IMG/VR virus record: IMGVR_UViG_3300037628_000422
Span: 1-30,270 of that record
DNA: 30,270 bases
Direction: 5' to 3' (one strand)
Source: a virus
Shown here: piece by piece, positions 1-14,707 of the stretch
Layout of the letters: each line of letters opens with the position of its first letter
Position numbering within the stretch: position 1 is the stretch's first letter
Notes under the pieces: model-generated
What the model was told of the DNA's origin: nothing
What the model saw: the letters and a program-made list of their open reading frames with translations, nothing else
Database searches by the model: none
Translations under genes and position numbers: made by a program

Positions 1-8
1 TTTTCTTC

Positions 9-419
9 TTAGCCATGGAGGTGCCTCTGTACAAGTTCTGAGAAATCGGGCGGAAAGAAGTCGGGACCCTTATCCCGAACACGTGGATCACCTGTGACTC
101 TCTTCGAGTCGTTCGATGCGCAGACCAGGCGGAGGATCTCCGTCGAGTCTAGGTCAAGAGCTGAACCAGTACCGATCACGACGTACAGCAGGTCGCCGTA
201 CGCATCCATGAGATCGGTGTAGGTCTTCTCCATGTCGTTGGATCCTTTCTGATCGATGCGGAAGGCCGCTTCAAGCAGTTCGGATAGTTCTTCAGTGATG
301 AGCTGAGCACGTAGCACCATGCATTGCATGAGATTTACGTCTGATCTCGGCGATCCATGCCGGTAGTTAAAGGCCGCGATGTTCCCGTGGAAATCATCCA
401 GCGAGTTGAGTGTACTCAT
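9..419 (-). CDS. MazG-like all-alpha nucleotide pyrophosphohydrolase
   Basis: This 136-residue protein looks like a MazG/HisE-type all-alpha NTP pyrophosphatase, a family that hydrolyses (d)NTPs to (d)NMPs and pyrophosphate. Visible metal-binding motifs are E43-E44-x-x-E47 and, one helix later, D72-x3-D76. The C-terminal part, with ASN-x-SKR (residues 101-107) and RDKGP-x-FFPPDF (115-126), is typical of phage MazG-like proteins. It starts at ATG 419 behind a GGGAG site, and the ATG overlaps the previous stop as ATGA. It is the last visible gene of the leftward operon with the synthase-like enzyme and dNMP kinase. From that context I infer it could act on dCTP, supplying dCMP as T4 gp56 does, but the sequence does not fix its substrate. 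Confidence 0.8.
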   Translation of the reverse strand: MSTLNSLDDFHGNIAAFNYRHGSPRSDVNLMQCMVLRAQLITEELSELLEAAFRIDQKGSNDMEKTYTDLMDAYGDLLYVVIGTGSALDLDSTEILRLVCASNDSKRVTGDPRVRDKGPDFFPPDFSELVQRHLHG

Positions 420-631
420 GAAGGCTCCCGGTTCAGGGTGACTCGAACGATCGTGATCTGCCCGTACTTGATGTGCGAGCGATACAACAGCCGCCTGACC
501 TCACCAGCGCAGTCGACGCAGTGAAAGAAGGCAGCCCTTGAGGAGTCAGGCTCGAAGCCGTACCCCGTCCAGGTGTACTCATCGCGGTTCTGCAGGATCC
601 AAGCCGAGCGTGGATATGATGCGCTCTGCAC
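416..631 (-). CDS. Small protein of unknown function in the nucleotide operon
   Basis: I do not recognise this protein of about 71 residues. The part not shared with the kinase gene reads like a real protein: a tyrosine/tryptophan-rich stretch, then HCVDCAGE with a C-x2-C pair, then a basic/hydrophobic C-terminus. Its TGA overlaps the ATG of the MazG-like gene (ATGA), which supports translational coupling. The start is uncertain. GTG at 631 is used here, with GGAG upstream but spaced rather close. An ATG at 706 would give 96 residues but lengthen the overlap with the kinase gene to about 128 bases. The ATG at 580 that overlaps the kinase stop opens a different frame with a low-complexity Ser/Thr/Gly product and is not preferred. 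Confidence 0.5.
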   Translation of the reverse strand: MQSASYPRSAWILQNRDEYTWTGYGFEPDSSRAAFFHCVDCAGEVRRLLYRSHIKYGQITIVRVTLNREPS

Positions 632-1115
632 AGTCTCCGGGACTGTCTCGGGAGCTGTCGTAGCTGAGGCAGCCGTCGAGCTGAGCGGCGAGGTCTTCAT
701 AGGCACTGATGAACTTCCCGATGTTCTCGAAGACGAAGACGTCGAGGTCGTTCGCTTCTACGTCCTGCTCGATCCGGGACATGACATCCAGCCGGTCAGC
801 CCGACAATAGACGATGACATGCTTCCGCTTCCCGAGCTCTGCCTCTAGTTCAGGCAGCTGCCACGGCTGGTACGCGTACTCGTTCCGCCAGAGCGGTCCA
901 TACACGAGCTCACCGTGGAACAGACGATCGCAGATGGCGTGGTCCGGTAGCTCACGGATCGTTTTCATGTAGTACTCAAACCCAGGCAGATAGTCTGGAT
1001 CAGTGATGTGCGGCGGCGGACCTTCGTGCGAGACCGGGTAGCCGAGACGACGATGCAGTTCTGCAGCGAGTGTCGATTTACCAGTCTTGTCTAGGCCTTC
1101 GAGAACGATGATCAT
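579..1115 (-). CDS. Deoxynucleoside monophosphate kinase (thymidylate-kinase-like P-loop kinase)
   Basis: This 178-residue protein belongs to the P-loop NMP kinase superfamily. It begins with strand-P-loop-helix, with the Walker A G7-L-D-K-T-G-K-S-T15. D63-R64 starts the DR-x(6)-VYG motif (residues 63-73) seen in thymidylate and deoxynucleoside kinases, where the Asp-Arg pair helps hold the acceptor nucleotide. Its length is close to the usual 180-210 residues. ATG 1115 overlaps the stop of the synthase-like gene as ATGA, with GAGGAAG upstream. T4 has an equivalent activity (gp1) that phosphorylates hydroxymethyl-dCMP, and the neighbourhood suggests the same job here. The acceptor base cannot be read from the sequence. 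Confidence 0.8.
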   Translation of the reverse strand: MIIVLEGLDKTGKSTLAAELHRRLGYPVSHEGPPPHITDPDYLPGFEYYMKTIRELPDHAICDRLFHGELVYGPLWRNEYAYQPWQLPELEAELGKRKHVIVYCRADRLDVMSRIEQDVEANDLDVFVFENIGKFISAYEDLAAQLDGCLSYDSSRDSPGDCAERIISTLGLDPAEPR

Positions 1116-1951
1116 GTGAGAGGCTTCCTCAGCAGGAAGTTGTGAAGCATCCTGCCGTAGCTAGAGAGCGGACCAGTCCCGGCGCCAGTCATGATGGCGT
1201 CACGCACCTGAGTGTAGGACCGGTCCGGTTGGTTCATGTACTCCGGGATGGGGATAGCCGTGTGCAGAGTAGCGGCTGCTTCTTCGACACGGTCAGCGTC
1301 GTAGAAACCAGCTTCCGGTGAGTACATGTGGAGTGAGTCGATGTACTCTCTGAGCACTCCCGGCCTGACGTCCAAGTCTTCTGCCATGTGGCACAGCAGC
1401 GTTCCGAAGACGAAGTGATCGTAAGGCACGCCCCAAATCACGTCGGCCGAGCGACGGAACACGGTCAGATCCAACTCGCCCTTGCGGACCTTGAAGTAGA
1501 TCTGGGTGTTGCACGGGTGGTCCTTCTTAGCGTACTGGAGGACGTCGAGATCGTTGTTCCAAAGAGTCAGCACAGCCTGACGGGTGTCAGGATCTACCGA
1601 CAGTTTTTCGATGATGGCATCGTACTTGGACGGGAAGCCGAGTCGAGTACCATACGCTCCGTGGAACGTACCGTCTGCCTCGGCGAACTGCGCAACGTTC
1701 TTGTTGAAGCGTGCCGGCCACGATAGGTCGTTCCAGCCGCAGCGCATGGCCATGTACTCTGCCATAGCGAAGCGGTAGTTGACACTCGGATCGGGGATCA
1801 TGCACTCGCCTGGGCTGTGGCTCTCGATGATCACCGGTCGGAGCTCCCTACAGGGTAGACCTCTCGGGTTCGTGAGCGCACCATTGCTGCTGATGTGCTT
1901 GATCATGTCGCTGTAGACCTCGGCGAGGCCTAAACATCTGTAGAATTTCAT
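1112..1951 (-). CDS. Thymidylate-synthase-family enzyme predicted to act on dCMP (dCMP hydroxymethylase or methylase)
   Basis: This 279-residue protein is clearly of the ThyA fold: YGTR (100-103), D120-P-D-T-R124, the nucleophile C147 in HPCNTQ, R167-S-A-D170, and H208-x-Y210 for the sugar hydroxyl. These run one residue ahead of E. coli ThyA C146, N177, H207 and Y209. The position of N177, which selects uracil, is here D178 (GVPYDHF). An Asp at this site is the hallmark of T4 dCMP hydroxymethylase (D179), and the Asn-to-Asp change in thymidylate synthases shifts preference to dCMP. I therefore predict 5-hydroxymethyl- or 5-methyl-dCMP as product; which of the two cannot be told. The ATG follows AGGAGG and its own promoter. 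It is the first gene of the leftward operon with the dNMP kinase and MazG-like pyrophosphatase. Confidence 0.85.
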   Translation of the reverse strand: MKFYRCLGLAEVYSDMIKHISSNGALTNPRGLPCRELRPVIIESHSPGECMIPDPSVNYRFAMAEYMAMRCGWNDLSWPARFNKNVAQFAEADGTFHGAYGTRLGFPSKYDAIIEKLSVDPDTRQAVLTLWNNDLDVLQYAKKDHPCNTQIYFKVRKGELDLTVFRRSADVIWGVPYDHFVFGTLLCHMAEDLDVRPGVLREYIDSLHMYSPEAGFYDADRVEEAAATLHTAIPIPEYMNQPDRSYTQVRDAIMTGAGTGPLSSYGRMLHNFLLRKPLT

Positions 1952-2185: not shown

Positions 2186-4873
2186 GTGAGGAAGAACGTG
2201 TTACGACGTCAAGCTGTGAAAGAGTTCCTGGACAAGGTGGCAGACCCGCACATGGCGGAGCTGTACTCCCACTTTATGGAAGTCCAGGTCAATACGGTCG
2301 ACGGCACGGAACGTGTCACAGGTACAACCAAGAAGGGTAAGAACTGGTGGGGATGGAAAGACCCGAAGACTGGTGAGACCTGGAAGAACTTCCGGATCCC
2401 TTGGAATGCCAACACCGTACCTGAGTACAAAGACTCAGCGATCCGCTTCAACCTTGAGACGAAGTGCGAGTGTGTTGGACTCACTGGCTGGGACTGGGAG
2501 AACCAGCTCAGCCACTGGGTAGGCTTCGACTACGACTCGATCGTGGGTCACGAGAAGTCTAAAGGTCTGACCATGAAGCAGCTCGATGCTGTGAAGGAGA
2601 GGCTCCTTGAGCTCCCGTTCGTCAAGATCATACGTTCCAAGTCTGGACGAGGCTTTCATGCATATGTATTTTTCGATGAGCCCGTACCCTGTGCCAACCA
2701 CACGGAGCACGCAGCTCTTGCACGGGCTGTGCTCAGTGAAATGTCTGGGCTTGTCGGTCACGACCTCTTTGAGGATGTTGACAAATATGGCGGAGTACTT
2801 TGGATCTGGCACCGCGAAGCCACACCCGGAGGCTTCCAAGTGGTTCGGGAAGCCAGTGAGCGAATGTGTGCTCCTCAGTCCTGGCGCAACCACATCGATG
2901 TTATTCGTGATGGAGCGCTCAAAGTTAGATCTCGTGGCGGTGATGATCCGGCCTTCGAGGATCTCATCGCGCGCACCAAGCAGACCACGCTTGATGATGA
3001 TCACCGTCGACTCATTGAGTGGATGCGTAAGTCTGGATGGTTCGCCACCTGGGACAATGATCGACACATGCTCACGGCCCATACTGCTGCGCTGGCCGCT
3101 GCCCACAAGGAGCTCGGGTTTAGAGGCCTTTTCGAAACTGTGGCCGGCGGTACGTCGAAGAACGACTACAATTGCTTCATGTTCCCTCTTCGCAACGGGT
3201 CCTGGGTGGTCCGTCGCTTCGGAGCCGGAAGCAAAGAGCACCCGGCGTGGCAAGTCGACCAAAAAGGCTGGACCAAGTGTATGTACAACGTTCCCACCGA
3301 CATCGACACGGCCGCCCGTGCGTGCGGTGCGGACGAGATCGAGTCAGGTGAGTGGGTCTTTGAGAAGGCACTGACCATCTGCTCGATCGCGATGAAGTAC
3401 TTGGATGCGCCGACCATCCCGCTCGACGTGAAGTACCACGAGCGTGAGGGTCGACTCAAGCCAATGAAGGACCGGTCCAAGGTCCTCGTCCGCATTAAGA
3501 TGCAGGACAAGAACGAGCCTCGACCCGATGGGTGGAGGCCTGACAAGAAGAGTGAGTACCTTCAGAAGGTCGTGGACATCGAGCGGGGAGAGATCGAACT
3601 CGAGCCGCCGGATGAAGACGTCCGACTCATGGTCGCGGGAGGGTTTGGCGCAGGTTGGTTTATCCACGTGAAGGAGGACTGGCATGGACACGGAAAGTCT
3701 GATATCAAGGATCTCCTTCGTAGTGAGGGGAGGTCCGGTAGCGAGGTGGACAAACTCATCGGTCTCTGCCTCAAACACCCTTACTATCGTGTTTCCGTAC
3801 CTTTCCAGCCGGAGTATATTGGGAATAGGCAGTGGAACCTGCGCGCTGCTCGCCTGCGATACAAGCCTATTGAGGGCCAGCACCCTACCTGGGACTCGAT
3901 CTTTGATCATATCGGGAGAACCCTCACTGAGTCGGTCCTCGAGGACTCTTGGTGCAAAGCGAATAGCGTGGTTACAGGGGCAATGTATCTCAAGCTATGG
4001 GTTGCTTCTATGTTTCAGTATCCCGCCCAGCCACTGCCCTATCTATTCCTGTATTCACCGGACGAGGATACGGGCAAGAGCACCATGTGGGAAGCTCTCC
4101 ACATCCTGTTCGCCGATGAGAACGTCGGATGCGTCCGAGCCGACAGAGCTCTGACCACCGACTTCAACGGTGAGCTGGAAGGTGCGGTGTTAGCAGTCGT
4201 GGAGGAGACCAACCTCCAAGTGGCTAAGCAAGCCCGCAACCGCATGAAGGACTACGTGACTGGCCGGACCATCTCGATCAGAAATCTGTACCAGGCTAAG
4301 TTCGACACGATCAACTACACGCACTGGATACAGTGTGCGAACGACGTGCTGTACTGCCCGGTCATGAAGGGTGACTCACGAGTGGTCGTGATCCTGGTTG
4401 AGAAACCGGCGGTGATCGTACCGAAGGCAGAGTTCTTCGCGAGACTAGAAGCTGAGGCAGCGGCGTTCATGCACACGGCTCTGAACCTGCATGTACCGCG
4501 GAGTACGAGTCGGTTACGGATACCGACCATCACGTCGGCTGCGAAGCAAGACGCACAGACGATGAACCAGAACGAGCTCGAAGCATTCATCACAGACTTC
4601 ATGTACCCGTGCAACGGGCATCTGGTCTGTCGTGACACCTTTGTTCAAGCCTTCAAAGAGTCGATCATCACAGATCCTCAGGCCACGTCGTTCTGGACAT
4701 CACATAAGATCAACAACTTCCTTCGGAAGAACGGATACGACATGGGTCGTAAGGGAGGTGGAGGTCGTCTCCACATCTTGAACCATACATCTAACATCGC
4801 GGACACCCCGCGAGACGTACGCTGGCATGCAGCAGACGAACGAAGCACGGCCACGGAGGTCCCAATTGCTTAA
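2186..4873 (+). CDS. Primase-polymerase / superfamily 3 helicase replication protein
   Basis: This 895-residue protein combines two replication domains. The N-terminal third resembles an archaeo-eukaryotic primase: FD115-Y-D117 (hhhDhD motif), S153-G-R-G-F-H158 ahead of a hydrophobic strand (sxH motif), and a third acidic strand near 198-208. The C-terminal third is a D5/SF3-type helicase ATPase, with Walker A S624-PDEDTGKS-T633, a Walker B-like hydrophobic strand ending in EE near 667-674, and a later GDSR. It would prime and unwind phage DNA. It is the first gene of the rightward operon. The start chosen is GTG 2186, which follows only a weak GGGG site; an in-frame ATG at 2252 is the alternative. 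No separate DNA polymerase was recognised in the window. Confidence 0.85.
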   Translation: MRKNVLRRQAVKEFLDKVADPHMAELYSHFMEVQVNTVDGTERVTGTTKKGKNWWGWKDPKTGETWKNFRIPWNANTVPEYKDSAIRFNLETKCECVGLTGWDWENQLSHWVGFDYDSIVGHEKSKGLTMKQLDAVKERLLELPFVKIIRSKSGRGFHAYVFFDEPVPCANHTEHAALARAVLSEMSGLVGHDLFEDVDKYGGVLWIWHREATPGGFQVVREASERMCAPQSWRNHIDVIRDGALKVRSRGGDDPAFEDLIARTKQTTLDDDHRRLIEWMRKSGWFATWDNDRHMLTAHTAALAAAHKELGFRGLFETVAGGTSKNDYNCFMFPLRNGSWVVRRFGAGSKEHPAWQVDQKGWTKCMYNVPTDIDTAARACGADEIESGEWVFEKALTICSIAMKYLDAPTIPLDVKYHEREGRLKPMKDRSKVLVRIKMQDKNEPRPDGWRPDKKSEYLQKVVDIERGEIELEPPDEDVRLMVAGGFGAGWFIHVKEDWHGHGKSDIKDLLRSEGRSGSEVDKLIGLCLKHPYYRVSVPFQPEYIGNRQWNLRAARLRYKPIEGQHPTWDSIFDHIGRTLTESVLEDSWCKANSVVTGAMYLKLWVASMFQYPAQPLPYLFLYSPDEDTGKSTMWEALHILFADENVGCVRADRALTTDFNGELEGAVLAVVEETNLQVAKQARNRMKDYVTGRTISIRNLYQAKFDTINYTHWIQCANDVLYCPVMKGDSRVVVILVEKPAVIVPKAEFFARLEAEAAAFMHTALNLHVPRSTSRLRIPTITSAAKQDAQTMNQNELEAFITDFMYPCNGHLVCRDTFVQAFKESIITDPQATSFWTSHKINNFLRKNGYDMGRKGGGGRLHILNHTSNIADTPRDVRWHAADERSTATEVPIA

Positions 4874-5249
4874 GATCGATACACTCGCGAAGCCGATCGG
4901 TAAGATCTGCTGGATCGAGGTGGAGATGATCGAGATGTCGAGAGGCGGGATCTACTTTCACCGCGCCGACGACAAGGAGGTCCCGGATAGAGGCACTCTG
5001 TTTCTGACCGGAGACGAGGTAAGCGAGGAGATCACATCTCTCTGCGGCTGGTTGTTCTGGTACCGGAACACAACCGGTGCGATGTTCAAGTACGAGCCGC
5101 CTGATGGTGAGCCGCCCTGCATCGTTCATGCCATCCACGAGGACGATCTCCTCGCGTATAGCACTGATTGGAAGCTGCTTGAGCAGTTCATCGAGCCGAC
5201 GGTCTCACCGTCTCTGATCGAGAAGGCCTGGGACGGTGAGGACAGGTGA
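4866..5249 (+). CDS. Hypothetical protein downstream of the primase-helicase
   Basis: This protein of 127 residues is not recognised. It is acidic, with mixed strands and several Trp/Cys residues (LCGWLFWYRN; PPCIVHAIHEDDLL). I chose the TTG start at 4866 because a full GGAGG lies 6 bases upstream. This leaves only 8 bases of overlap with the primase-helicase gene, a spacing repeated elsewhere in this genome. An upstream ATG at 4827 would add 13 residues but overlap by 47 bases. Its GTGA overlap with the next nuclease gene argues for co-translation with replication functions. Confidence 0.75.
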   Translation: MLKIDTLAKPIGKICWIEVEMIEMSRGGIYFHRADDKEVPDRGTLFLTGDEVSEEITSLCGWLFWYRNTTGAMFKYEPPDGEPPCIVHAIHEDDLLAYSTDWKLLEQFIEPTVSPSLIEKAWDGEDR

Positions 5250-5602
5250 AGTCCTTCGACGCTAATCCACGCAAGCTTGAGTCTGACTTAGGCGACGAGC
5301 TCCGCGCTCACATGGTGAAGCGCGGGTGGATGATGCGTAAGGTGCATGGCTCGACGTACATGAAGGGCTGGCCGGACTACTGGTGCTATCACCCGGACTT
5401 CGGTATGAGATGGGTTGAGATGAAGAGGCCTAATCACGGGCGCTTGAAGAATACCCAGATAAAATTTTTCGGAGAATTAAACAAGTTCGGTTGTCCTGTC
5501 ACTATCGCCTTGGGCGTTGAGGACTACCTGATGATCGTGAAGAAAGAAAACAACTGGTGGAAGTGGGCTCCGGGCCTCAGCAAGGAGTGGCGCCATGGAT
5601 GA
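5246..5602 (+). CDS. VRR-NUC domain nuclease
   Basis: This 118-residue protein fits the stand-alone phage VRR-NUC nuclease, a PD-(D/E)xK fold. GWPD (41-44) supplies the first acidic residue, E58-x-K60 in RWVEMKR completes the core, and Q71 follows on the next helix. Length matches the single-domain phage versions, about 90-130 residues. Such enzymes are thought to cut branched or structured DNA during replication or recombination, though a specific substrate cannot be read here. The GTG start overlaps the preceding stop (GTGA), and the gene overlaps the following one by 8 bases. Confidence 0.85.
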   Translation: MKSFDANPRKLESDLGDELRAHMVKRGWMMRKVHGSTYMKGWPDYWCYHPDFGMRWVEMKRPNHGRLKNTQIKFFGELNKFGCPVTIALGVEDYLMIVKKENNWWKWAPGLSKEWRHG

Positions 5603-5921
5603 TGTCATCACAGTGCAGGTTTCACAGTCAGACGGGTCATGGATCCGCTTCACTGTAGAACCTTACGATACCCTGTTCATCAACGTATCTGACGCTGGTG
5701 AGACGCAACGACTGAAGCTCGAAGGGTTCGTAACCGAGATGAGTAGTTACGATCCTATCCCTGTATTACGCAAACGAGGAGACCTTGGTGGCCTACAACA
5801 CGACTCACTTAGATCCGGAGACGACGTTCGAACGGCACGTCTACCATCGAGATCAATTCGCACACTTCCTCCGGTGGACACACGTCCTCCGACTGATGAA
5901 GAGGGACCTCAACGTCCTTGA
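5595..5921 (+). CDS. Hypothetical protein with a long 3' overlap
   Basis: This 108-residue protein is not recognised. The ATG at 5595 is well supported by GGAG 7 bases upstream. The first 60 or so residues look like an ordinary small beta-rich protein. From about 5788 the frame runs inside the methyltransferase gene, and its residues become Arg/Ser/Pro-rich, as expected of an out-of-frame shadow. The ancestral gene may have ended near 5785 and lost its stop, or a base change near there extends it. The N-terminal part is firm; the last 45 residues are doubtful. Confidence 0.6.
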   Translation: MDDVITVQVSQSDGSWIRFTVEPYDTLFINVSDAGETQRLKLEGFVTEMSSYDPIPVLRKRGDLGGLQHDSLRSGDDVRTARLPSRSIRTLPPVDTRPPTDEEGPQRP

Positions 5922-6543
5922 CGTCTGCTGTGGCCCGGGCTCGCTGCTCGAGGTCATCTGGCGGAACAGGTTCGCGGCGAAGGAGTACTGTGGCATCGAC
6001 ATCAGGTCGGAGCTGCTTGCCAAGAACAAAGAGAAGTTCAAGCGGGTCACGTTCCCTCACCGCTTCATCCCGATCGACATCGTACACGGTACGCTGCCGA
6101 AGCCGAAGGACGGGGAGTGGGACGTCATCACGTTCTTCGAAGGTATCGAGCACATCTCGAAGCAGCACACTCACACGATCATGGAGAACATCGACGCTGT
6201 GATGGGGCCGAACACTCGGCTGTTGATCTCGACTCCCTGCTTCAATGGTAAGGCAGCCGAGAACCACATCATCGATGGTGAGGTCTGTGAGTACGGCTAC
6301 GTTGAGCTGAAGCTGGCACTCAAGCTTCACTTCGACATGCATCCGCTCGGGTTCGAGCATTACGGCACGTTCGTGTCGAAGGCAGACATCATCGACCTCG
6401 TCCGGCTCAAGGGCTGGGGAGATCTGTACGACTCGATGGAGAAGTACTACGACTCCAACATGATGTCCGTGATCTGGGCGCCGATGTTCCCAGCTCAGGC
6501 ACGTAACGTGATCTGGAACGTCGGTAAGAAGAAGGTGTTCTAA
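5788..6543 (+). CDS. SAM-dependent class I methyltransferase
   Basis: This 251-residue protein shows the Rossmann methyltransferase signature: motif I VLDVCCGPG (43-51), acidic residue D71 ending the second strand (CGIDI), and a later strand WDVITFFEGIEHI with an acidic-aromatic motif like the post-I region of small-molecule and protein methyltransferases. No NPPY/DPPY motif of N6-adenine or N4-cytosine methylases and no PC motif of C5 methylases is evident, so DNA is not the obvious substrate. The start is GTG 5788, spaced 6 bases from GAGGAG; TTG 5785 is too close to the site. A second, unrelated-looking methyltransferase lies in the structural module (22994-23587). Confidence 0.8.
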   Translation: MAYNTTHLDPETTFERHVYHRDQFAHFLRWTHVLRLMKRDLNVLDVCCGPGSLLEVIWRNRFAAKEYCGIDIRSELLAKNKEKFKRVTFPHRFIPIDIVHGTLPKPKDGEWDVITFFEGIEHISKQHTHTIMENIDAVMGPNTRLLISTPCFNGKAAENHIIDGEVCEYGYVELKLALKLHFDMHPLGFEHYGTFVSKADIIDLVRLKGWGDLYDSMEKYYDSNMMSVIWAPMFPAQARNVIWNVGKKKVF

Positions 6544-7955: not shown

Positions 7956-8881
7956 AGCGGGCCGACCATGGTACGATCAAGCCGGTAGACTTGGACGGCG
8001 ACTCCGCGTGGACGCTCGCCAAGTTCCTCGAAGCGTCAGGTACGCTACCGTATCCTCGGATGCCGGCATATCTGAGTCCAACGTCGTTCTTCGAGTTGGA
8101 GTCGAACCCAGATCTTTTCTATCTCAAGAGATGTGGACCGATTGAGCTGAAGCCAGAGAGTGAGCCACAAGCGAATTACTTCGGCGTTGGCTCGGCGTTC
8201 GACTACTTCATCAAGGTCCTACTCGCAGCCCGACTCGGTCAGCTGCTGCCGACCGACATGTACGAAACGCAGGTCGAGAAGCACAATCGCTCAGCTAACA
8301 ATATCATCCCGCGACTCGGGCTGGCAGCAGCTGCTGCTTACTTCGACTCGCCGTGCTTCGATCGCCTGTTCAAGGTGGACGGATTGCACCGTGTCGAGGA
8401 CCAAGTCGAGCCTATTCGGATCGAGGGTGTACCTCTTTGGGGTAAGCCTGACGCTAGCCTGTGGCGAGATCCGGTCGGCGTGTATGCTCACGACTTCAAG
8501 ACGACCGGCGCGTTCTCGAAGAACAAGAAGAACCCAGCGCCAGGGTACAAGATGCTCTGGCGGCGGATCAACGGCTCGTGGAAAGAGACGGGTGCACACA
8601 AGAACGCGTTCATGACCATGGATCAGATCAGCGAGAGCTGGGCTATCCAGTGCGTGTTCTACAGTTGGATGCTTGGGCGTAGCCCGAACATCGACTGCCC
8701 ATGCTCGATCGATCAAATCGTGTACAATGGGGCAGACATCGCCATCGCGCAGTATCGCAGCGTTGTGACGGTCGAGTTCCAGCAGGACCTGCTCCATCGC
8801 TTGGTGCAGGCCTGGGATATCGTCCAAGGGAAGCGGGTCGTGGTCGGACCCGATCCCACTTGGACGATGATGATGGCCTAA
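7952..8881 (+). CDS. PD-(D/E)XK exonuclease, Cas4/RecB-like
   Basis: This 309-residue protein matches phage RecB/Cas4-type nucleases. An N-terminal LSPTSFFELE segment stands where these families recognise the domain start. GKPD (164-167) and HD181-F-K183-TT give the PD-(D/E)xK core, and Q233-x3-Y237 forms the helical QxxxY motif typical of this branch. Unlike Cas4, I see no obvious four-cysteine iron-sulfur cluster. A role in recombination or DNA end processing with the adjacent DEDDh exonuclease is likely. The ATG overlaps the upstream stop (ATGA). It is the last rightward replication gene and meets the leftward block tail to tail, with the two stops overlapping. Confidence 0.85.
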   Translation: MKRADHGTIKPVDLDGDSAWTLAKFLEASGTLPYPRMPAYLSPTSFFELESNPDLFYLKRCGPIELKPESEPQANYFGVGSAFDYFIKVLLAARLGQLLPTDMYETQVEKHNRSANNIIPRLGLAAAAAYFDSPCFDRLFKVDGLHRVEDQVEPIRIEGVPLWGKPDASLWRDPVGVYAHDFKTTGAFSKNKKNPAPGYKMLWRRINGSWKETGAHKNAFMTMDQISESWAIQCVFYSWMLGRSPNIDCPCSIDQIVYNGADIAIAQYRSVVTVEFQQDLLHRLVQAWDIVQGKRVVVGPDPTWTMMMA

Positions 8882-9102
8882 CAGTCGAGCTTTTCGATCT
8901 CGACTATGTGCTTCTTAATATAGCCTGGCGGACTACCATCCGTCAGGCTTTTGTCAGCTTCATCTCGCACCTCGATCGCGTCTTTCAGGTAGAGAAACTC
9001 TCTCGGCCTATCACCTACATAGATGAATTCATGAAACATGCCGATTGAATACTCGAATTGGTCTTCTTGCCGCTTGTGCACTGTGTAATACGTGACCTTC
9101 AT
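8878..9102 (-). CDS. Small hypothetical protein, last gene of the leftward accessory block
   Basis: This 74-residue protein is not recognised. It is charged and beta-rich with several Tyr residues (MKVTYYTVHKR; HEFIYVGDRPREFLYLKDA). ATG 9102 overlaps the upstream stop (ATGA). Its TAG at 8878-8880 overlaps the TAA of the convergent Cas4/RecB-like gene, so no room is left for a dedicated terminator between opposing operons. Confidence 0.75.
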   Translation of the reverse strand: MKVTYYTVHKRQEDQFEYSIGMFHEFIYVGDRPREFLYLKDAIEVRDEADKSLTDGSPPGYIKKHIVEIEKLDC

Positions 9103-9347
9103 GCCTTACGCCATTCGCGTAGGAAGGCAGGATACGTTGCGGGTGGTCGGACTAGTCCTATCACTCGCAACGGTCCACAATGCCGACCGGGTAGGTGACG
9201 CCACGACGCGTGCATCGCTACCACTTGTGCGTCTGATCGACGCTCGAACACGGTAGCAGATGCGGCGAGGTAGAGCTCTCCGTTAGACGCGAGTCGTACC
9301 CCAGAGCTAGTGCCTCCGAGTACGAGCTTGTAGCCGATGTACTTCAT
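9099..9347 (-). CDS. Small hypothetical protein
   Basis: This 82-residue protein is not recognised. It starts at ATG 9347 behind a strong GGAGGAG site and overlaps the previous gene's stop. The N-terminal half is a Gly/Leu-rich beta segment (YKLVLGGTSSGVRL; ELYLAASATVFERR). The C-terminus is basic and Pro-rich. An earlier in-frame ATG at 9404 exists but would overlap the upstream gene by about 60 bases and lacks such a site. Confidence 0.7.
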   Translation of the reverse strand: MKYIGYKLVLGGTSSGVRLASNGELYLAASATVFERRSDAQVVAMHASWRHLPGRHCGPLRVIGLVRPPATYPAFLREWRKA

Positions 9348-9577
9348 ATAGTCTCCTCCGAGTCTCTTGCCATGTCTTCCAGTGACGAGGAGAGGTCCCG
9401 CCACAGCATGCTGAGCGAACCTTGATCGGCTAGCTTCACGCCGAACATGAACGTTCTTTTACCTGCTTTAGAGTCGAACCTCAGACTGATGAGAACATCA
9501 CCGGGTGGGATGTCGTACAGCTCTGGGTTGATCCATCTATCGCGCTGCTCGTCAGTTGCGATGTCGTCAATACTCAT
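9344..9577 (-). CDS. Small hypothetical protein
   Basis: This 77-residue protein is not recognised. It has an acidic N-terminus rich in Asp/Arg/Trp, a central strand pair (DVLISLRFDS and TFMFGVKLAD) and an acidic C-terminal helix. Start and stop overlap both neighbours (ATGA at the 5' end), showing it is part of the same translationally coupled chain. Confidence 0.7.
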   Translation of the reverse strand: MSIDDIATDEQRDRWINPELYDIPPGDVLISLRFDSKAGKRTFMFGVKLADQGSLSMLWRDLSSSLEDMARDSEETI

Positions 9578-9849
9578 CTGTGTCTCTTCGCGTAGTCGGA
9601 CAGGCTGGCGAAGTTGAAGTGAGCTTCGTTCAGTTCTAGGAAGTAGACCTCGATCTCGTCGGCGAAGTCGTCGGTTTGGGACGGCTCATCGACTCGCCAG
9701 CACACGTTGCCTCGATCTGTCTGCACACGGCAGTAGACTGGAGGCTCGTCGACTGTGTCGTAGTCCTCCTTGAGGAGGTAGTACCCTGGGCTGGGCAGGT
9801 TGCCGAGCGACTCAACGCTCAGCGGTTTATGGACAAAGATCCTGCTCAT
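9574..9849 (-). CDS. Small acidic hypothetical protein
   Basis: This 91-residue protein is not recognised. It begins SRIFVHKPLSVESLG, then YYLLKEDYDTVDEP and a beta segment with two cysteines (C41, C51 in VYCRVQTDRGNVCWRV), then an acidic stretch ending in a helix with SDYAKRHR. The ATG follows GGAG by 6 bases and overlaps the upstream stop (ATGA). Composition suggests a small soluble protein; no family was identified. Confidence 0.7.
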   Translation of the reverse strand: MSRIFVHKPLSVESLGNLPSPGYYLLKEDYDTVDEPPVYCRVQTDRGNVCWRVDEPSQTDDFADEIEVYFLELNEAHFNFASLSDYAKRHR

Positions 9850-10058
9850 GTATTGCTCCAGAATGGGACCAGTTTGTGGGTCAGGTAACCGAGCGATTGA
9901 AGCACGTCGGTTGCGTGTTTCATCGTCTTGGACGAGTTAACGACGTGCGCTTCGTTGAAGTAAAAACTTATCCGTCCTCGGCCAGCCCACCAGACATCTG
10001 GTAAGCCGGCCTTGGTGCCGATGACGTACATTCGACCATGTCCGCTGGAGTGGCTCAC
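9846..10058 (-). CDS. Small hypothetical protein
   Basis: This protein of 70 residues is not recognised. It contains YVIGTKAGLPDVWWAGRGRI, then SFYFNEAHVV and SLGYLTHKLVPFW. The start is ambiguous: GTG 10058 is used because it overlaps the upstream stop as GTGA, the pattern of this block. GTG 10073 and ATG 10031 are alternatives in the same frame. The Trp/Gly/Arg-rich centre followed by a strand could indicate ligand or nucleic acid binding, but nothing firmer can be said. Confidence 0.65.
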   Translation of the reverse strand: MSHSSGHGRMYVIGTKAGLPDVWWAGRGRISFYFNEAHVVNSSKTMKHATDVLQSLGYLTHKLVPFWSNT

Positions 10059-10378
10059 TCGATCTCTCGCCACTTAGCGTTGTCCCACAAGTCGCGGACT
10101 TCCCTCAGCTGCGACTTGCGTACCTGCATCGTGACCTCGACGAGCGGGTCGCGTCGATCGTAGATCTCGGCCACCTCAGTGATCTTGACTGGGATGACGA
10201 TCAGACCTGGATCGAAGTTCCAAGTCGAGCCGGTATGTAGATACCTGACGTGGACGATGCGATCGCGGTGCTCGACGACTTGGAAGACCTCGCTACCGTT
10301 CGGCTTCATCCCGAACTGGTTCTTCTCGAGGTGTGCGAGTGATACCTTGCGCCTGTGTCTGTGCTTAACTACTTTCAT
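10055..10378 (-). CDS. Basic hypothetical protein
   Basis: This 107-residue protein is not recognised. The N-terminus is strongly basic (KVVKHRHRRKVSLAHLEKN). The middle is beta-rich (EVFQVVEHRDRIVHVRYL; GLIVIPVKITEVAEIY), and it ends in a charged helix. The basic start could contact nucleic acid. ATG 10378 overlaps the upstream 47-residue gene's stop (ATGA). Confidence 0.7.
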   Translation of the reverse strand: MKVVKHRHRRKVSLAHLEKNQFGMKPNGSEVFQVVEHRDRIVHVRYLHTGSTWNFDPGLIVIPVKITEVAEIYDRRDPLVEVTMQVRKSQLREVRDLWDNAKWREIE

Positions 10379-10518
10379 CCGGGTTCTCCGTTAACGTATC
10401 GTTCTTGCGCTGCCGCGACAGCTTCCACTACTTCGATAAACTTCTCGTCCGACATAGGGATGCCATGCAGGATGTTCTCCAACACAGCTTCCCACCATAT
10501 GTAAGCTGGATCGATCAT
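10375..10518 (-). CDS. 47-residue protein, shorter paralogue of the next upstream gene
   Basis: A short gene with ATGA overlaps at both ends. Its product (47 residues) is an acidic helical protein with WWEAVLENILHGIPMSDEKF followed by a Val/Glu/Ala helix. This aligns with the N-terminal 35 residues of the adjacent upstream gene product (YWQTSLETILEDITLTDEQF and following): both have Trp, x-LE-x-IL, then (S/T)DE(K/Q)F and a V-E-x-V-A helix. The pair therefore probably arose by tandem duplication, with this copy lacking the long coiled-coil tail. Function unknown. Confidence 0.75.
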   Translation of the reverse strand: MIDPAYIWWEAVLENILHGIPMSDEKFIEVVEAVAAAQERYVNGEPG

Positions 10519-10817
10519 TGGTTCTCCGCGTCGTAGAGATCTGACCTGAGGCGTCGGATCGTGTACCTGAGGTTCTCGAGCTCTTCTCGGTACTTAGCTT
10601 CACGATCCTCCCAGCTCGCCTCATCTTTGTGGTGAGCTGTGGTAATCCTCTCGATCTCGGCTACCGACGGGTGCGGGATGTGCTCCTGTCCTGTAGCCTC
10701 CCACTCCATAGAAGCAGAGTGAGCAACGTCCTCGACGATCTGTGAGAACTGCTCGTCTGTGAGAGTGATGTCCTCGAGTATCGTCTCAAGGCTGGTCTGC
10801 CAGTATGAGTCACTCAC
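10515..10817 (-). CDS. Acidic helical protein, longer paralogue
   Basis: This 100-residue protein is not recognised. The N-terminal 35 residues resemble the complete 47-residue neighbour product. The remainder is a highly charged helix with a probable coiled coil (EASWEDREAKYREELENL and following, residues about 66-95). It starts at GTG 10817, overlapping the preceding gene by 8 bases. A two-part design, with a shared small helical head and an oligomerising tail, is what the sequence suggests. Confidence 0.75.
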   Translation of the reverse strand: MSDSYWQTSLETILEDITLTDEQFSQIVEDVAHSASMEWEATGQEHIPHPSVAEIERITTAHHKDEASWEDREAKYREELENLRYTIRRLRSDLYDAENQ

Positions 10818-11046
10818 AGGGTACTATCCGTCCTGGTAGGACTTGGCGAACCATCATGCCTTTGCGGAGCACACGTGGTATGCGTAAGCTGTTGCCAGCC
10901 TGCTCAGCGATAGTGCCTTCGCGGTCATGTCTGATGAGCGTCCAAGGATATGGACATCCGTCGTCCGACAAGAAGCAATCGTTCGGGTTGAGCGAACCGA
11001 GCTTCTTCTTGGTGCGTATGATCGTGCACTCGATGTGTATCCTCAT
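10810..11046 (-). CDS. Small basic hypothetical protein
   Basis: This 78-residue protein is not recognised. It opens with a strand and a basic patch (RIHIECTIIRTKKKLG), has a central DGCPYPWTLIRHDREG segment with two cysteines in the first half, and ends in a basic, Val/Leu-rich strand. ATG 11046 overlaps the upstream stop as ATGA. A longer in-frame start at 11115 would overlap the upstream gene by about 70 bases and is not preferred. Confidence 0.7.
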   Translation of the reverse strand: MRIHIECTIIRTKKKLGSLNPNDCFLSDDGCPYPWTLIRHDREGTIAEQAGNSLRIPRVLRKGMMVRQVLPGRIVPCE

Positions 11047-11384
11047 CGGAGTGGCATCGCTCTGGCCCATGACCAGTGTGTCCCACCGGAACTGTGCTTG
11101 TAGGCTCGGTACCAAATCTCTCGCATGAGAGCTTCAGTGAACGGGTTGATGAGATCGAATTCCATATCGCCTTGCGTCATCACGTACTGAAGCTTAGGCC
11201 AGTCATGAAGACGGACGAGAGTACCGCCGTAAAGTGTGAACTTGTATGACGTTCCGTCTCCAGGTTCCATGTTGAACAGGAACGGATGGTCTTTGTCGCG
11301 CTCAAGATAGTCCTTGTGCCACTGTAGGAGTGGCAGCAGACGTGAGTCGTGGACTCGATTGCCTTCTGAGCCGTACATTCTCAT
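11043..11384 (-). CDS. Hypothetical protein
   Basis: This 113-residue protein is not recognised. The N-terminus is helical and charged (LLQWHKDYLERDKDH), the centre is a beta-rich Gly/Tyr region (SYKFTLYGGTLVRLHDW), and the C-terminus is aromatic and basic (EIWYRAYKHSSGGTHWSW). ATG 11384 overlaps the stop of the 55-residue upstream gene. One of the larger members of the block, so it could be a useful anchor for homology searches. Confidence 0.75.
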   Translation of the reverse strand: MRMYGSEGNRVHDSRLLPLLQWHKDYLERDKDHPFLFNMEPGDGTSYKFTLYGGTLVRLHDWPKLQYVMTQGDMEFDLINPFTEALMREIWYRAYKHSSGGTHWSWARAMPLR

Positions 11385-11548
11385 AGCGTGCAGTACCGCT
11401 TGAGTGCGGATAGCGCGTAGTTGATGATGGCTCGCAGCCCGACGTCTTCAAGAGACTCGAGATCGATACCGTCGAGTGGCAGACCGATGTACAGCTTGCC
11501 ATCGACGATGTGCCATGTGACTCCGTTTAGTTCGCCGCTTTTTAGAAT
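11381..11548 (-). CDS. 55-residue protein probably started at ATT
   Basis: The open frame runs from just upstream of 11548 to TGA 11381-11383, which overlaps the next ATG. The product contains VTWHIVDGKLYIGLPLDG followed by an amphipathic helix (residues about 30-52), a compact strand-strand-helix pattern that looks genuine. The frame contains no ATG, GTG or TTG. However, ATT at 11548-11546 lies 8 bases after a perfect GGAGG, so a rare ATT start is the best explanation. A sequence error that removed a standard start is the alternative. Function unknown. Confidence 0.6.
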   Translation of the reverse strand: MLKSGELNGVTWHIVDGKLYIGLPLDGIDLESLEDVGLRAIINYALSALKRYCTL

Positions 11549-11757
11549 TTGATCGTCCTCCGGAGATGAGCTTCAAGCTCGTCTTGGTCGTAACCGAGCT
11601 TGAGGAAGCCACGCTGTACGCGGACTGCTGCCATGAATTGTACGTGCTCTGATGCGCACAGGATCAGAGCTCTAGCCGCACCGGCACGACAGCCGATGCG
11701 GTAAGCAATGCGGTAAACGAGATACGTCCAGACGAGGATGGTGAGTGCGATCACCAT
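11542..11757 (-). CDS. Small single-pass membrane protein
   Basis: This 71-residue protein is not recognised as a family. Residues 1-20 form a hydrophobic segment (VIALTILVWTYLVYRIAYRI) followed by positive charges, as expected for an N-terminal membrane anchor. The rest is a soluble helix with AARALILCASEHVQF and a charged C-terminus. ATG 11757 overlaps the preceding gene by 7 bases. A role at the host membrane is possible, but there is no evidence for holin-like function. Confidence 0.75.
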   Translation of the reverse strand: MVIALTILVWTYLVYRIAYRIGCRAGAARALILCASEHVQFMAAVRVQRGFLKLGYDQDELEAHLRRTIKF

Positions 11758-12137
11758 GGTCGGTCCCCATCGTGGTCCCAGCCGTTCGGGAAGTTCTCTG
11801 GGCAGACGATAGGATGGCTGTGAACCGGGTCGCCTTGATGGTTCGTCCACCACCACAGTATGTCGAACTGCGGGTACTTCCCGTAAAAGGCTCGTGTGCA
11901 CTCCCACATGGAGGCATGGTGTCGAGAGATTAGCTGGCGCTCGTAATCCATATCATCCTGTCGGATGTTGACTTCTGAATAGCCCTTTGAGAGCTGACGC
12001 AGTGCCTGCTCTATGTCATAGCTGTTCATGTGCTCGTCTGAGTAGATGGTCACCTGAACTGTATGACTGAAGTTGAACAGCTGACCCGCTAGGATCCTGC
12101 CGTCGTCCTTGGCCGTGTCGTACTTACTTGACACGCG
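11751..12137 (-). CDS. Hypothetical protein with His/Cys/Trp-rich C-terminus
   Basis: This protein of 128 residues is not recognised. The start chosen is GTG 12137, right behind a GGAGGAGG run and overlapping the upstream gene by 14 bases. A longer frame to 12281 would lie inside that gene. The first half is beta/helical (LFNFSHTVQVTIYSDEH; YDIEQALRQLSKG). The second half is rich in His, Cys and Trp (SRHHASMWECTRAFYG; FDILWWWTNHQGD; HSHPIVCP), which may bind metal. Confidence 0.7.
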   Translation of the reverse strand, partial: RVSSKYDTAKDDGRILAGQLFNFSHTVQVTIYSDEHMNSYDIEQALRQLSKGYSEVNIRQDDMDYERQLISRHHASMWECTRAFYGKYPQFDILWWWTNHQGDPVHSHPIVCPENFPNGWDHDGDRPW

Positions 12138-12309
12138 TCCTCCTCCATCCGCAAGGTGTATTAATCTCGACTGCGACCGCCTCACGGAGCGTCTCGAGTC
12201 GTTCTCTGAACTTAGTTGCTGAGCGAAGGTCGCGCACCCATCGATAGCTGAAGCCACCGGTGTTCTTGTAGTACCGACCATCGTCGAGTCGCTTGATGAC
12301 GTGTCTCAT
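12124..12309 (-). CDS. Small basic hypothetical protein
   Basis: This 61-residue protein is not recognised. It is basic, with RHVIKRLDDGRYYKNTGGFS then YRWVRDLRSATKF, and its second half is a charged helix. The layout (short strand pair then helix, Tyr/Arg-rich) resembles many tiny phage proteins of unknown role. Start ATG 12309 touches the upstream TGA. Confidence 0.7.
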   Translation of the reverse strand: MRHVIKRLDDGRYYKNTGGFSYRWVRDLRSATKFRERLETLREAVAVEINTPCGWRRTRVK

Positions 12310-12614
12310 CAATATTGTCTCGGGAACGCAGCGCCAGCTTCGACGTTGAACCAGATAGGTGCCGTGTCTTGCCAATGTTGCAGCATTCCGCTGACCTGGG
12401 GAGGCACGTGGTCGATGTCGAACGAGACGAGTATCTTGCCGGCGATGTCGACGATCTTGACTGTGTCGTTGTCGACGTCTTTCTGGATAAAGCACGGGTC
12501 GAGCTTAACGACCTGCGTGTTGTCAGGCAGAAAGATCTCCAAGTCCGACTTGAACTTCTGTTCAGTCGTGATCAGGTGAATCATGAACATGTTCAGTTCA
12601 TTTGAGCTAGTCAC
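12309..12614 (-). CDS. Hypothetical protein
   Basis: This 101-residue protein is not recognised. It is beta-rich and acidic: LEIFLPDNTQVVKLD, VKIVDIAGKILVSFDIDHV, then an aromatic C-terminus (LQHWQDTAPIWFNV). GTG 12614 overlaps the upstream gene by 8 bases and has GGAG 9 bases upstream. In-frame ATGs at 12590 and 12584 are weaker alternatives. Confidence 0.7.
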   Translation of the reverse strand: MTSSNELNMFMIHLITTEQKFKSDLEIFLPDNTQVVKLDPCFIQKDVDNDTVKIVDIAGKILVSFDIDHVPPQVSGMLQHWQDTAPIWFNVEAGAAFPRQY

Positions 12615-12900
12615 GGCGCACGATCTCCGCGTCTGAGTACCAGACAGGTACGATGTCGAAGACGTCTCCGAACATGCTTGTGTACTCGGCTTGATGGATC
12701 TCGCGGATCTTGACAGATTCGCCAGCTTCCAGGTCGTCTCCGGTGCGCGTGAGATACAGATGGTGGTGCTGCTTCACGATGAAGCCTGGGCGCCAGATCT
12801 GTATCTTCTCGATCTTACATCCGAGATGCCCGAGATTAGACAGCGCGTCTATCGCAGGCTGGATGTTGCCTTCAAGTTTCAATAACAATTTGCGCGACAA
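12607..12900 (-). CDS. Hypothetical protein
   Basis: This 97-residue protein is not recognised. The first half is helical (IQPAIDALSNLGHLGCKIEKI). The second is beta-rich with three consecutive His at about 45-47 (FIVKQHHHLYLTRTG) and ends IVPVWYSDAEIVRRD. The start is TTG 12900, 9 bases after AGGAG. This start overlaps the 30-residue membrane peptide gene by 29 bases. Confidence 0.7.
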   Translation of the reverse strand: MSRKLLLKLEGNIQPAIDALSNLGHLGCKIEKIQIWRPGFIVKQHHHLYLTRTGDDLEAGESVKIREIHQAEYTSMFGDVFDIVPVWYSDAEIVRRD

Positions 12901-12964
12901 GGATCAGTACTCCTATTATTAGAGTGTAGGCCAAGAACGGATGTATGTCTGCTCTTTCATCCAT
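12872..12964 (-). CDS. 30-residue single-pass membrane peptide
   Basis: A very short open frame starting at ATG 12964, which overlaps the stop of the upstream gene in the same ATG-GATGA arrangement seen across this block. After a charged N-terminus (MDERADIHP), residues 10-28 are an uninterrupted hydrophobic helix (FLAYTLIIGVLILVAQIVI). The gene fills what would otherwise be a gap between two coupled genes. The composition is hard to explain by chance in this GC-rich block. Function unknown. Confidence 0.55.
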   Translation of the reverse strand: MDERADIHPFLAYTLIIGVLILVAQIVIET

Positions 12965-13232
12965 CTGCCCAGACCATTTCGGCTGGGCTGAGGGTGAGTT
13001 TCTGAACCCGCAGTATGTGCAGGGGTTGGGACTCGGCCACGATGCCGGCAATGATGACGGCTGTGTCGCGACTCGCGTGCTGGAACGCTTTCCAGTACTC
13101 GGACGATATCTCCATGTCAGAGGTGAAGTCGTCTGTAGTCAAGTAGAACCAATACTGCTGCCCGAGTGGCATGACTGCCACGATCCAAGCTGTAGCGCTG
13201 TAGTTGTCTTTGGATCCGTCAATCAACGACAA
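12957..13232 (-). CDS. Hypothetical protein
   Basis: This 91-residue protein is not recognised. It has a hydrophobic beta-rich first half (ATAWIVAVMPLGQQYWFYLTT), an acidic middle (DMEISSEYWKAFQHASRD) and a hydrophobic strand (TAVIIAGIVAE). The start is uncertain, TTG 13232 or TTG 13226. Both overlap the upstream gene slightly, so the N-terminus may shift by two residues. Confidence 0.7.
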   Translation of the reverse strand: MSLIDGSKDNYSATAWIVAVMPLGQQYWFYLTTDDFTSDMEISSEYWKAFQHASRDTAVIIAGIVAESQPLHILRVQKLTLSPAEMVWADG

Positions 13233-13419
13233 TGTGCTCGACCTTAACGATCGACCACTTGTAGCCGCGTGCTTTACGCAGCTTAACGATGGCTGCGTGA
13301 GCCTCGACCTCTTCCGCGAACGGACGGGCCTGGTTCATGTACGGAGTCCATTTGTCGTCCTCGCGCAGGAAGAGTCCTGGGCCAGTCGGGTGGTCCTTGC
13401 GGACGTAGAAGACGATCAT
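13219..13419 (-). CDS. Small hypothetical protein
   Basis: This 66-residue protein is not recognised. It starts with a strand (IVFYVRKDHPTGPGLFLRE), has a central helix rich in Ala/Glu (ARPFAEEVEAHAAIVKLRK) and ends in another strand (YKWSIVKVEHIVV). That strand-helix-strand order could form a small alpha/beta fold. ATG 13419 overlaps the upstream regulator-like gene (ATGA). Confidence 0.7.
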   Translation of the reverse strand: MIVFYVRKDHPTGPGLFLREDDKWTPYMNQARPFAEEVEAHAAIVKLRKARGYKWSIVKVEHIVVD

Positions 13420-13634
13420 TCTTCCTCTTTCTTCAGCGCAGCTTTGAACTGTTCTGCGCCTGACTTGATCAGCTGTTCTACGAAGTCTTGCCGGGTCATG
13501 CCGTACTCACCTCGGACCATGTCGATCCACGTGAACAGATCTCTGTGCACATAGATCGTGAAGCCTTTGAAGGCAGATCTTTTCGATCCCTTGGAGGCAG
13601 GCTTGAGCCGGCGAACGAAGTCGTCCATACTCAT
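13416..13634 (-). CDS. Probable ribbon-helix-helix DNA-binding protein
   Basis: This 72-residue protein has the outline of a ribbon-helix-helix (Arc/MetJ/CopG-like) regulator: a basic lead (residues 8-22), one short strand FTIYVH (25-30), a helix (DLFTWIDMVRGEYG), a turn with MTRQDF, and a second helix (VEQLIKSGAEQFKAAL), ending in a charged tail. These proteins dimerise and insert the paired strands into DNA. The start ATG 13634 follows GGAG at 11 bases; a GTG at 13694 would add 20 residues but runs through the hairpin. It is the only likely regulator in the block and a natural candidate to bind the nearby operator-like dyads. That link is inference. Confidence 0.6.
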   Translation of the reverse strand: MSMDDFVRRLKPASKGSKRSAFKGFTIYVHRDLFTWIDMVRGEYGMTRQDFVEQLIKSGAEQFKAALKKEEE

Positions 13635-13662
13635 ATTATTGATAGCTCCGGAAACGGGTTTA

Positions 13663-13692
13663 GGCCGAGACCAGTAATTGCTGGTCTCGGCC
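13663..13692. terminator. Perfect 12-bp hairpin after the first paralogue
   Basis: GGCCGAGACCAG (13663-13674) and CTGGTCTCGGCC (13681-13692) pair perfectly around a 6-base loop. It lies 16 bases past the stop of the leftward gene 13709-13972 and before the regulator-like gene. There is no T-tract on either side, so it may be a leaky terminator, an RNA processing site or a 3' stabiliser. Confidence 0.65.
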
Positions 13693-13708
13693 ACGAGGTT
13701 GATCTCGA

Positions 13709-13972
13709 CTACTTGATGGAGTCGAGCAGGCTGGCGAGCTCGGGAGCGTTCTCGAGCGCGGTCTTCAGCTTGGCCTTGGCGGCCTTACGAGCCGTGTTGA
13801 GTGCCTTCTTCTCCTCGGACAGGGGGAAGTAGCGCTTCCAGATCTCGGACACCTCGGCCTTGACCGTCTGGTACTGGTCCTCGAGTCGCTTGGCATCCGT
13901 GATCAGCTCCTGGACGCTGGCGATCTGGGTTGCGATATCGGTCGTCTTGACCGTCTGCTTGTTCTGGTCCAT
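13709..13972 (-). CDS. Coiled-coil small protein, paralogue A of a twin cassette
   Basis: This 87-residue, almost wholly helical protein is not recognised as a family. Heptad-like spacing and charge suggest a coiled coil over residues 15-80, with a central E-V-S-x-I-W-K-x-Y-F motif and the C-terminus LLDSIK. It aligns without gaps to the 15438-15671 product at about half of 76 positions, so the two are paralogues. ATG 13972 follows GGAGG by 5 bases. It has its own promoter (14051-14092) and is followed by a perfect hairpin, an arrangement suggesting it is made in larger amounts than its neighbours. Confidence 0.8.
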   Translation of the reverse strand: MDQNKQTVKTTDIATQIASVQELITDAKRLEDQYQTVKAEVSEIWKRYFPLSEEKKALNTARKAAKAKLKTALENAPELASLLDSIK

Positions 13973-14050
13973 CTGGACCTCCGTTGATCCCCGAGTTGTT
14001 AATAGAGCCGAGAGACGGGGATCCAGATCTCTCGCTCATTTTCTAACACC

Positions 14051-14092
14051 ATTGTACCACGAAGTCGTGGAAATGTACAGTGTTTCACGTGA
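14051..14092 (-). promoter_or_regulatory. Leftward promoter P1 with upstream TCACGTGA box
   Basis: On the minus strand, TGTACA (14079-14074), 17 bases, TACAAT (14056-14051). The spacer contains an inverted repeat CCACGA-AG-TCGTGG. An 8-base palindrome TCACGTGA (14085-14092) lies 5 bases upstream of the -35 box, exactly as in P2. It would drive the 13709-13972 paralogue gene. Confidence 0.65.
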
Positions 14093-14095
14093 CTA

Positions 14096-14113
14096 TTTGC
14101 TCGATCGAGCAAA
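14096..14113. repeat. 18-base perfect palindrome
   Basis: TTTGCTCGATCGAGCAAA reads the same on both strands. It lies between the stop of gene 14122-14358 and promoter P1, so it could terminate the upstream transcript or be an operator. No T-tract follows on the minus strand. Confidence 0.65.
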
Positions 14114-14121
14114 CTGTTTTC

Positions 14122-14358
14122 TCAGCTGCTCACGAACGTCCGGGAGGTTACCCGGGCTTCGAAGGCATAATCGCCATTACGAGCGATCATACGAACTGTG
14201 GTGTTCGGATCGTCGATCGAGAGCACTGACTCGCCGTCTTGATAGCCTCGAGCTTCCTCGATGTTGGCCTCGTGCGCGGCAGCCTTCTTGGCATACACGG
14301 CTTGTACAACCCACCGGTTATCACTAGTTTTCTCTTCGGCCAGGTAGCATTCCATCAT
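14122..14358 (-). CDS. Small hypothetical protein
   Basis: This 78-residue protein is not recognised. It begins MMECYLAEEKTSDNRW, then a beta/helix stretch with VVQAVYAKKAAAHEANIEEA and a C-terminal beta-rich domain (TTVRMIARNGDYAFEARVTS). ATG 14358 overlaps the stop of the upstream gene; a second ATG follows immediately. GAGG 5 bases ahead supports this start. It is likely transcribed from P2 with the upstream gene. Confidence 0.7.
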   Translation of the reverse strand: MMECYLAEEKTSDNRWVVQAVYAKKAAAHEANIEEARGYQDGESVLSIDDPNTTVRMIARNGDYAFEARVTSRTFVSS

Positions 14359-14675: not shown

Positions 14676-14707
14676 CGTGTTGCGTCCTCCTCAACTCATG
14701 AAGATCC

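Follow-up and report, generated by a model that had tools for sequence, protein, structure and literature searches.

Phage T4 makes modified cytosine for its own DNA, which shields it against bacterial restriction enzymes, and Xp12 is a phage with 5-methylcytosine. Within the thymidylate synthase (TS) superfamily, an Asp at position 177 in EcTS numbering (Asp179 of the T4 enzyme) sets the preference for dCMP over dUMP, while an Asp at 143, three residues before the catalytic Cys, is the signature of hydroxymethylation and activates the water that gives the hydroxymethyl product (PMC6400193; PMC5175136; PMC8670742). In MetaGPA, no positions were linked to modified cytosine as strongly as 177 and 147 (PMC8670742). 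A thymidylate synthase carrying the Asn-to-Asp change makes 5-methyl-dCMP (cited in PMC8670742), and the choice between deoxyribose and ribose follows a Ser/Arg pair or, respectively, Ala176/Lys133 as found in MilA (PMC5175136).

We sorted the family by the residues at positions 143/147/177. The E. coli ThyA is L/H/N. SPO1 gp29 and 41 further viral rows are D/N/N (42 aligned rows), and T4 gp42 and 80 viral rows are D/T/D, one extra Asp-177 row having Tyr at 143. MilA is D/T/D as well, as judged by profile alignment. The T4 gp42 sequence used in all alignments was copied from the deposited T4 record. As a stand-in for Xp12 we used AXL1, of the same phage group, whose TS homologue gp63 (L127:16623-17564) is N/P/D and is adjoined by DHFR and dCMP deaminase genes; judged by sequence, N/P/D is a possible signature of dCMP methylases. 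Since AXL1 combines Asn143 with Asp177, methylase and hydroxymethylase types can be distinguished.

The window analysed here is a viral contig of 30,270 bases; it encodes terminase, portal and capsid proteins and comes from a tailed phage. An earlier note had described three minus-strand ORFs at its left end (9-419, 579-1115 and 1112-1951), and all three were found as it had them. The locus is composed as follows.

1112 to 1951, minus strand: TS-superfamily enzyme, 279 aa (PF00303, phrog_5131, alignments, AF2 model)
579 to 1115, minus strand: P-loop protein, putative (d)NMP kinase of the thymidylate-kinase/YorR type, 178 aa (phrog_761, YorR structure 2axp)
416 to 706, minus strand: small ORF without assigned role, with a putative start; its 5' part overlaps the kinase gene
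9 to 419, minus strand: MazG/PRA-PH-type all-alpha NTP pyrophosphatase, 136 aa (PF01503, phrog_671)
1 to 16, minus strand: start only (MAKKK...) of the next operon gene, truncated by the contig end
1952 to 2185: AT-rich intergenic stretch from the cassette to the divergent primase gene, with GGAGG ahead of the TS start
2186 to 4873, plus strand: divergent primase/helicase-type gene (DUF5906, family match), which marks the conserved locus

Start and stop codons overlap as ATGA both in the TS/kinase pair and in the small ORF/MazG-type pair. The operon is truncated by the left contig end. Here the first codons of a further minus-strand gene, ATGGCTAAGAAGAAA from base 16 onward, overlap the stop of the MazG-type gene by 8 bases, and the rest of this gene lies beyond the contig. 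When the region upstream of the operon was scanned for sigma-70 promoters, no signal exceeded shuffled sequences, and the scan found no consensus promoter in 1952-2185.

The TS protein passes PF00303 (59.2 bits against a gathering cut-off of 24.3, E=4.5e-16, Pfam) and matches phrog_5131 (E=1.7e-49, PHROG). Its active-site positions are R30, E65, Y100, R124, D144, C147, N148, R167, S168, D170, D178, H208 and Y210. The earlier note had placed C147, H208 and Y210 one residue away from their E. coli ThyA counterparts and D178 at the site of ThyA N177 and T4 D179. The alignment bears this out, C147/D178/H208/Y210 corresponding to ThyA C146/N177/H207/Y209 and D178 to D179 of T4 gp42, whose D145 aligns with D144; the same correspondence recurs in separate alignments. 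The catalytic Cys/Arg/His/Tyr of the superfamily are intact (C147, R167, D170, H208, Y210). By its family name and its matches to TS models, the protein might be taken for an ordinary thymidylate synthase merely raising the dTMP supply. We consider this very improbable, as it scores far under every NCBIfam TS equivalog cut-off, Leu143, His147 and Asn177 are all replaced, and no TS-like C-terminal tail was found in the alignment with ThyA and T4 gp42.

At the three sorting positions the query is D/N/D. It is thus a hydroxymethylase by 143, with D144 three residues ahead of the catalytic Cys, and a cytosine enzyme by 177, with D178; at 147 the cytosine-type Thr is absent and the uracil-type N148 is found instead. 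Thr occupies 147 in T4, MilA and all 81 other aligned cytosine-type (Asp-177) relatives. The earlier note had drawn the cytosine preference from D178; the Asp itself was confirmed, but as sole basis it is weakened by the second discriminating site, which is Asn as in dUMP hydroxymethylases. The predicted enzyme is of a known kind, with one unusual active-site residue (147).

The Asn148 raises the alternative of a dUMP hydroxymethylase making 5-hydroxymethyl-dUMP as in SPO1 and SP8, the phage then carrying hmU or hypermodified thymine. SPO1-group phages are indeed the best isolate matches of the query by E-value, and SP8, a member of this group, has 5hmdU for T (PMC7653180). Against this, Asp178 replaces an Asn kept in 42 of 42 D/N/N rows, and the PYD loop of the query is one residue shorter than the Asn-type GAN loop, like that of the Asp type. 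A point that weakens the cytosine reading is that, of 29 columns by which D/T/D and D/N/N differ, only 10 show the Asp-type residue in the query, and 5 the Asn-type one.

An Xp12-type dCMP methylase, producing 5-methyl-dCMP for a phage with 5-methylcytosine, would likewise have Asp at 177, as the AXL1 enzyme does, and the Asn-to-Asp thymidylate synthase that yields this product also speaks for it. However, D144 stands where AXL1 has Asn and ThyA has Leu, no DHFR gene was seen among the scanned window genes, and in the tree AXL1 groups with ThyA (98/97), apart from the query. This alternative appears improbable. Since D144 equals T4 D145 and is neither the Leu of ThyA nor the Asn of AXL1, the hydroxymethyl product is favoured, and 5-hydroxymethyl-dCMP would be likelier than 5-methyl-dCMP as judged from the sequence; the earlier proposal of 5-hydroxymethyl- or 5-methylcytosine is narrowed to its first half, the methyl form being less likely.

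Other active-site positions were also compared. S168 and R124 occupy the sites where MilA has Ala176 and Lys133 in the alignment, and a deoxyribose substrate is therefore expected. The site of T4 Ser94 is G98 in the query, Ala in SPO1 gp29 and Gly in nearly all viral relatives; a Ser/Thr at this site, two positions ahead of the active-site Tyr, is therefore no defining mark of the class at large. An AlphaFold2 model built from a 37-row alignment reached a pLDDT of 83.5 and a pTM of 0.84, its C-terminal part being weaker. Among solved structures, this model matched MilA best (TM ~0.80, against ~0.55-0.68 for thymidylate synthases). Similarly, a search of solved structures with the Asp-type profile ranked MilA first at 147.6 bits (E~4e-42), whereas TS reached ~104 bits. 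Because SPO1 gp29 also has MilA as nearest solved relative, these matches support a hydroxymethylase and do not bear on base choice.

A scan of IMG/VR with the D/N/D pattern D-x-P-C-N-(25)-G-x-x-Y-D matched 18 contigs, 6 of which encode TS-family proteins. In the tree, the query forms one clade with L131, L137 and L138 (support 100/99), outside the D/N/N and main D/T/D clades; L140, L142 and L143 form a second D/N/D clade separate from it. Members of the query's clade resemble the window beyond the enzyme. In L138/G001, L137/G002 and L131/G003, TS identity is 36-38% and primase identity 43-44%, terminase and portal reach 42-45% where present, and the G001 capsid reaches 52%. L138 sits in G001, a 54-kb contig that shares primase, VRR nuclease, exonuclease, terminase, portal, capsid and other genes with the window at 25-52% identity. 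As in the window, L131, L137 and L138 have the D/N/D residues, a primase gene divergent from the TS gene, and a kinase homologue following the TS gene; unlike the window kinase, this homologue is extended at its C terminus by a further domain of ~130 aa. The MazG-type gene lies downstream in L131 and G001, and in G001 it is followed by a dCMP deaminase gene. As residues, gene order and other genes are common to the clade, both D/N/D and its cassette are conserved within a group of phages. This group is without a close cultured relative. By tblastn, no relatives of the primase were found among isolated phages. A single-sequence pattern search found no relatives of the terminase in viral contigs.

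We then compared gene contexts around the different types. PRA-PH-type genes were present in 20/25 D/T/D contigs, 2/6 D/N/D, 3/10 D/N/N and 0/9 control virus contigs. The difference between D/T/D and D/N/N gave a Fisher p=0.008, to be taken as a guide because contigs are partial and phages related. Relatives of the window kinase were found in 7/25 D/T/D and 4/6 D/N/D contigs (11/31 for the Asp types together), and in 0/10 D/N/N and 0/9 control contigs. The association of kinase and MazG-type genes with the TS gene, on which the earlier note had built, thus recurs around Asp-type enzymes, and gene context favours Asp 177 as the substrate-telling site. For the dUMP hydroxymethylase, the resemblance of the kinase to thymidylate kinase and the dCMP deaminase downstream in L138 could be put forward, but the kinase family is missing from all ten Asn-type contigs and Asp-type enzymes too have dCMP deaminase neighbours; we regard this alternative as unlikely. 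The cytosine reading stands, since D/N/D recurs in clades and the kinase and MazG-type genes are commoner with Asp-type than with Asn-type enzymes, and we find it highly likely that dCMP is the substrate of the TS-family enzyme. That Asp177/Asn147 enzymes might instead form a distinct class, accepting both dCMP and dUMP or passing hmdCMP to an unrecognised step toward an undescribed modification, seems to us doubtful.

One member of the second D/N/D clade, L142, carries a carbamoyltransferase gene (PF02543/PF16861, 4949-6670) ~2 kb ahead of its TS gene. MetaGPA encountered the carbamoyltransferase-TS pairing only in modified-cytosine contigs, and for one such enzyme the study confirmed 5-hydroxymethylcytosine carbamoyltransferase activity (PMC8670742). 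L142 is thus a candidate for a carbamoylated hydroxymethylcytosine pathway; since it lies in the second clade, it speaks for the query by analogy.

The kinase has the P-loop GLDKTGKST. It scored 14.9 bits with Thymidylate_kin, against a Pfam cut-off of 27, and matched phrog_761 'thymidylate kinase' (E=7e-15) and the SPbeta YorR structure 2axp (E=4e-7). The MazG-type protein exceeds the PF01503 PRA-PH cut-off (32 bits against 21.3, E=1.6e-7) and matches phrog_671 (E=4e-17); its acidic motifs E43-E44-x-x-E47 and D72xxxD76 are kept across relatives. BLAST of the kinase against T4 gp1, and of the MazG-type protein against the T4 stretch expected to hold gp56, gave chance-level matches only. The mirroring of T4 gp56/gp42/gp1 suggested in the earlier note therefore holds for roles and does not extend to similarity of these two proteins. 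By analogy with T4, the kinase would plausibly phosphorylate modified dCMP and the MazG-type protein act as a dCTPase supplying dCMP.

Extra C-terminal parts were also seen on other kinases beside Asp-type TS genes (L142:6670-7944, L044:2480-3475, L131:2415-3335, L038:6989-7972). In L142 and in phage G gp315 (L044) this domain clearly belongs to the uracil-DNA-glycosylase superfamily, and the window kinase is without it; in L140 and L143, a UDG-family gene stands on its own close to the TS gene. For the small ORF 416-706, the libraries searched gave neither a family nor a relative, and no role was found. Its sole ATG/GTG/TTG starts, at 706 or 700, fall ~120 bases inside the kinase gene, which makes its start uncertain. 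The idea that it represents a lost kinase domain was unsupported.

Several genes elsewhere in the window were inspected. A glycosyltransferase-like protein (22045-23010, plus strand, phrog_6804) reads by eye like family GT9 and adjoins, inside the head-gene block, a methyltransferase (22913-23587, plus strand, phrog_6564); both are fused in L148 as one 492-aa protein (3815-5293). Their candidacy as hmC-modifying enzymes was set aside, because the TS gene was absent from 10 of 10 virus contigs with relatives of the glycosyltransferase-like protein. Two similar small proteins, at 13709-13972 and 15438-15713 on the minus strand, end in ...ELASLLDSIK and ...ELAALLKSIK and are apparently a duplicated gene. 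The long series of short overlapping minus-strand ORFs at 8878-14700 looks like an early-gene block.

No hypermodifying enzyme was identified in the window, no role was found for the small ORF, and the query has Gln at the EcTS R127 site. One could therefore propose a cassette that is real but degenerate, or that serves a use other than DNA modification, such as nucleotide-pool control. We judge this rather unlikely: the catalytic residues are all intact, the Gln is common to most Asp-type relatives, and gene order is conserved across contigs at ~37% identity.

Taken together, the operon probably makes 5-hydroxymethyl-dCTP for phage DNA. For the substrate, the product and every step in vivo, we infer the following pathway. 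The MazG-type pyrophosphatase would convert dCTP to dCMP. Cys147 of the TS-family enzyme would add onto C6 of dCMP, with Asp178 protonating the cytosine N3, and the one-carbon unit of methylene-tetrahydrofolate would be taken onto C5. The exocyclic methylene would then react with water activated by Asp144, instead of a hydride, and so become a hydroxymethyl group. Phosphorylation of hmdCMP by the kinase would yield hmdCDP, which host NDP kinase would convert to hmdCTP; from this the polymerase would substitute hmC for C, countering host restriction. If so, cytosine would be replaced by 5-hydroxymethylcytosine across this phage group, and its DNA would be expected to withstand many restriction enzymes and some CRISPR nucleases but to be open to attack by Type IV restriction. 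In addition, the D/N/D enzymes offer a natural test of whether the choice of cytosine or uracil is made at 147 or at 177, the two published sites.

How does the locus compare with known systems? SPO1 gp29 dUMP hydroxymethylase and PaMx11-type enzymes share Asp at 143 and Asn at 147 with the query but have Asn at 177 and a GAN loop one residue longer, the SPO1-type product being 5hmdU. MilA (5b6d, 5jnh, 5jp9), the mildiomycin CMP 5-hydroxymethylase, has both Asp residues and is the top fold match, whereas it prefers ribose via Ala176/Lys133 and has Thr at 147. In the Asp-type viral clade of MetaGPA-type TS homologues, Stenotrophomonas phage AXL3 (gp28-gp30) and PW916 have the two Asp residues and, like the window, the TS, a thymidylate-kinase-like and an NTP-pyrophosphatase gene in a single cluster. 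They are 32% identical to the query and have Thr at 147; the AXL3 kinase has 327 aa and is followed by a dCMP deaminase. Only 2 of 37 enzymes cut AXL3 DNA, both with A/T-only sites, and its authors took the cluster as serving dTMP supply (PMC7504290); the Asp residues instead suggest modified cytosine. A SAM-dependent methyltransferase of the window (5785-6543, plus strand) is ~30% identical to AXL3 gp31, which adjoins the AXL3 cluster; the parts of G001 and G002 that were searched yielded no counterpart of the window protein. Finally, T4 gp42 has Asp at 177 and 143 and the catalytic Cys/His/Tyr, and gp42/gp56/gp1 follow the same chain predicted here, dCTP to dCMP to hmdCMP to hmdCDP. It is nevertheless very distant in sequence, the query having Asn and not Thr at 147 and Gly and not Ser at T4-94, and the query genes form one operon, unlike gp42, gp56 and gp1 of T4.
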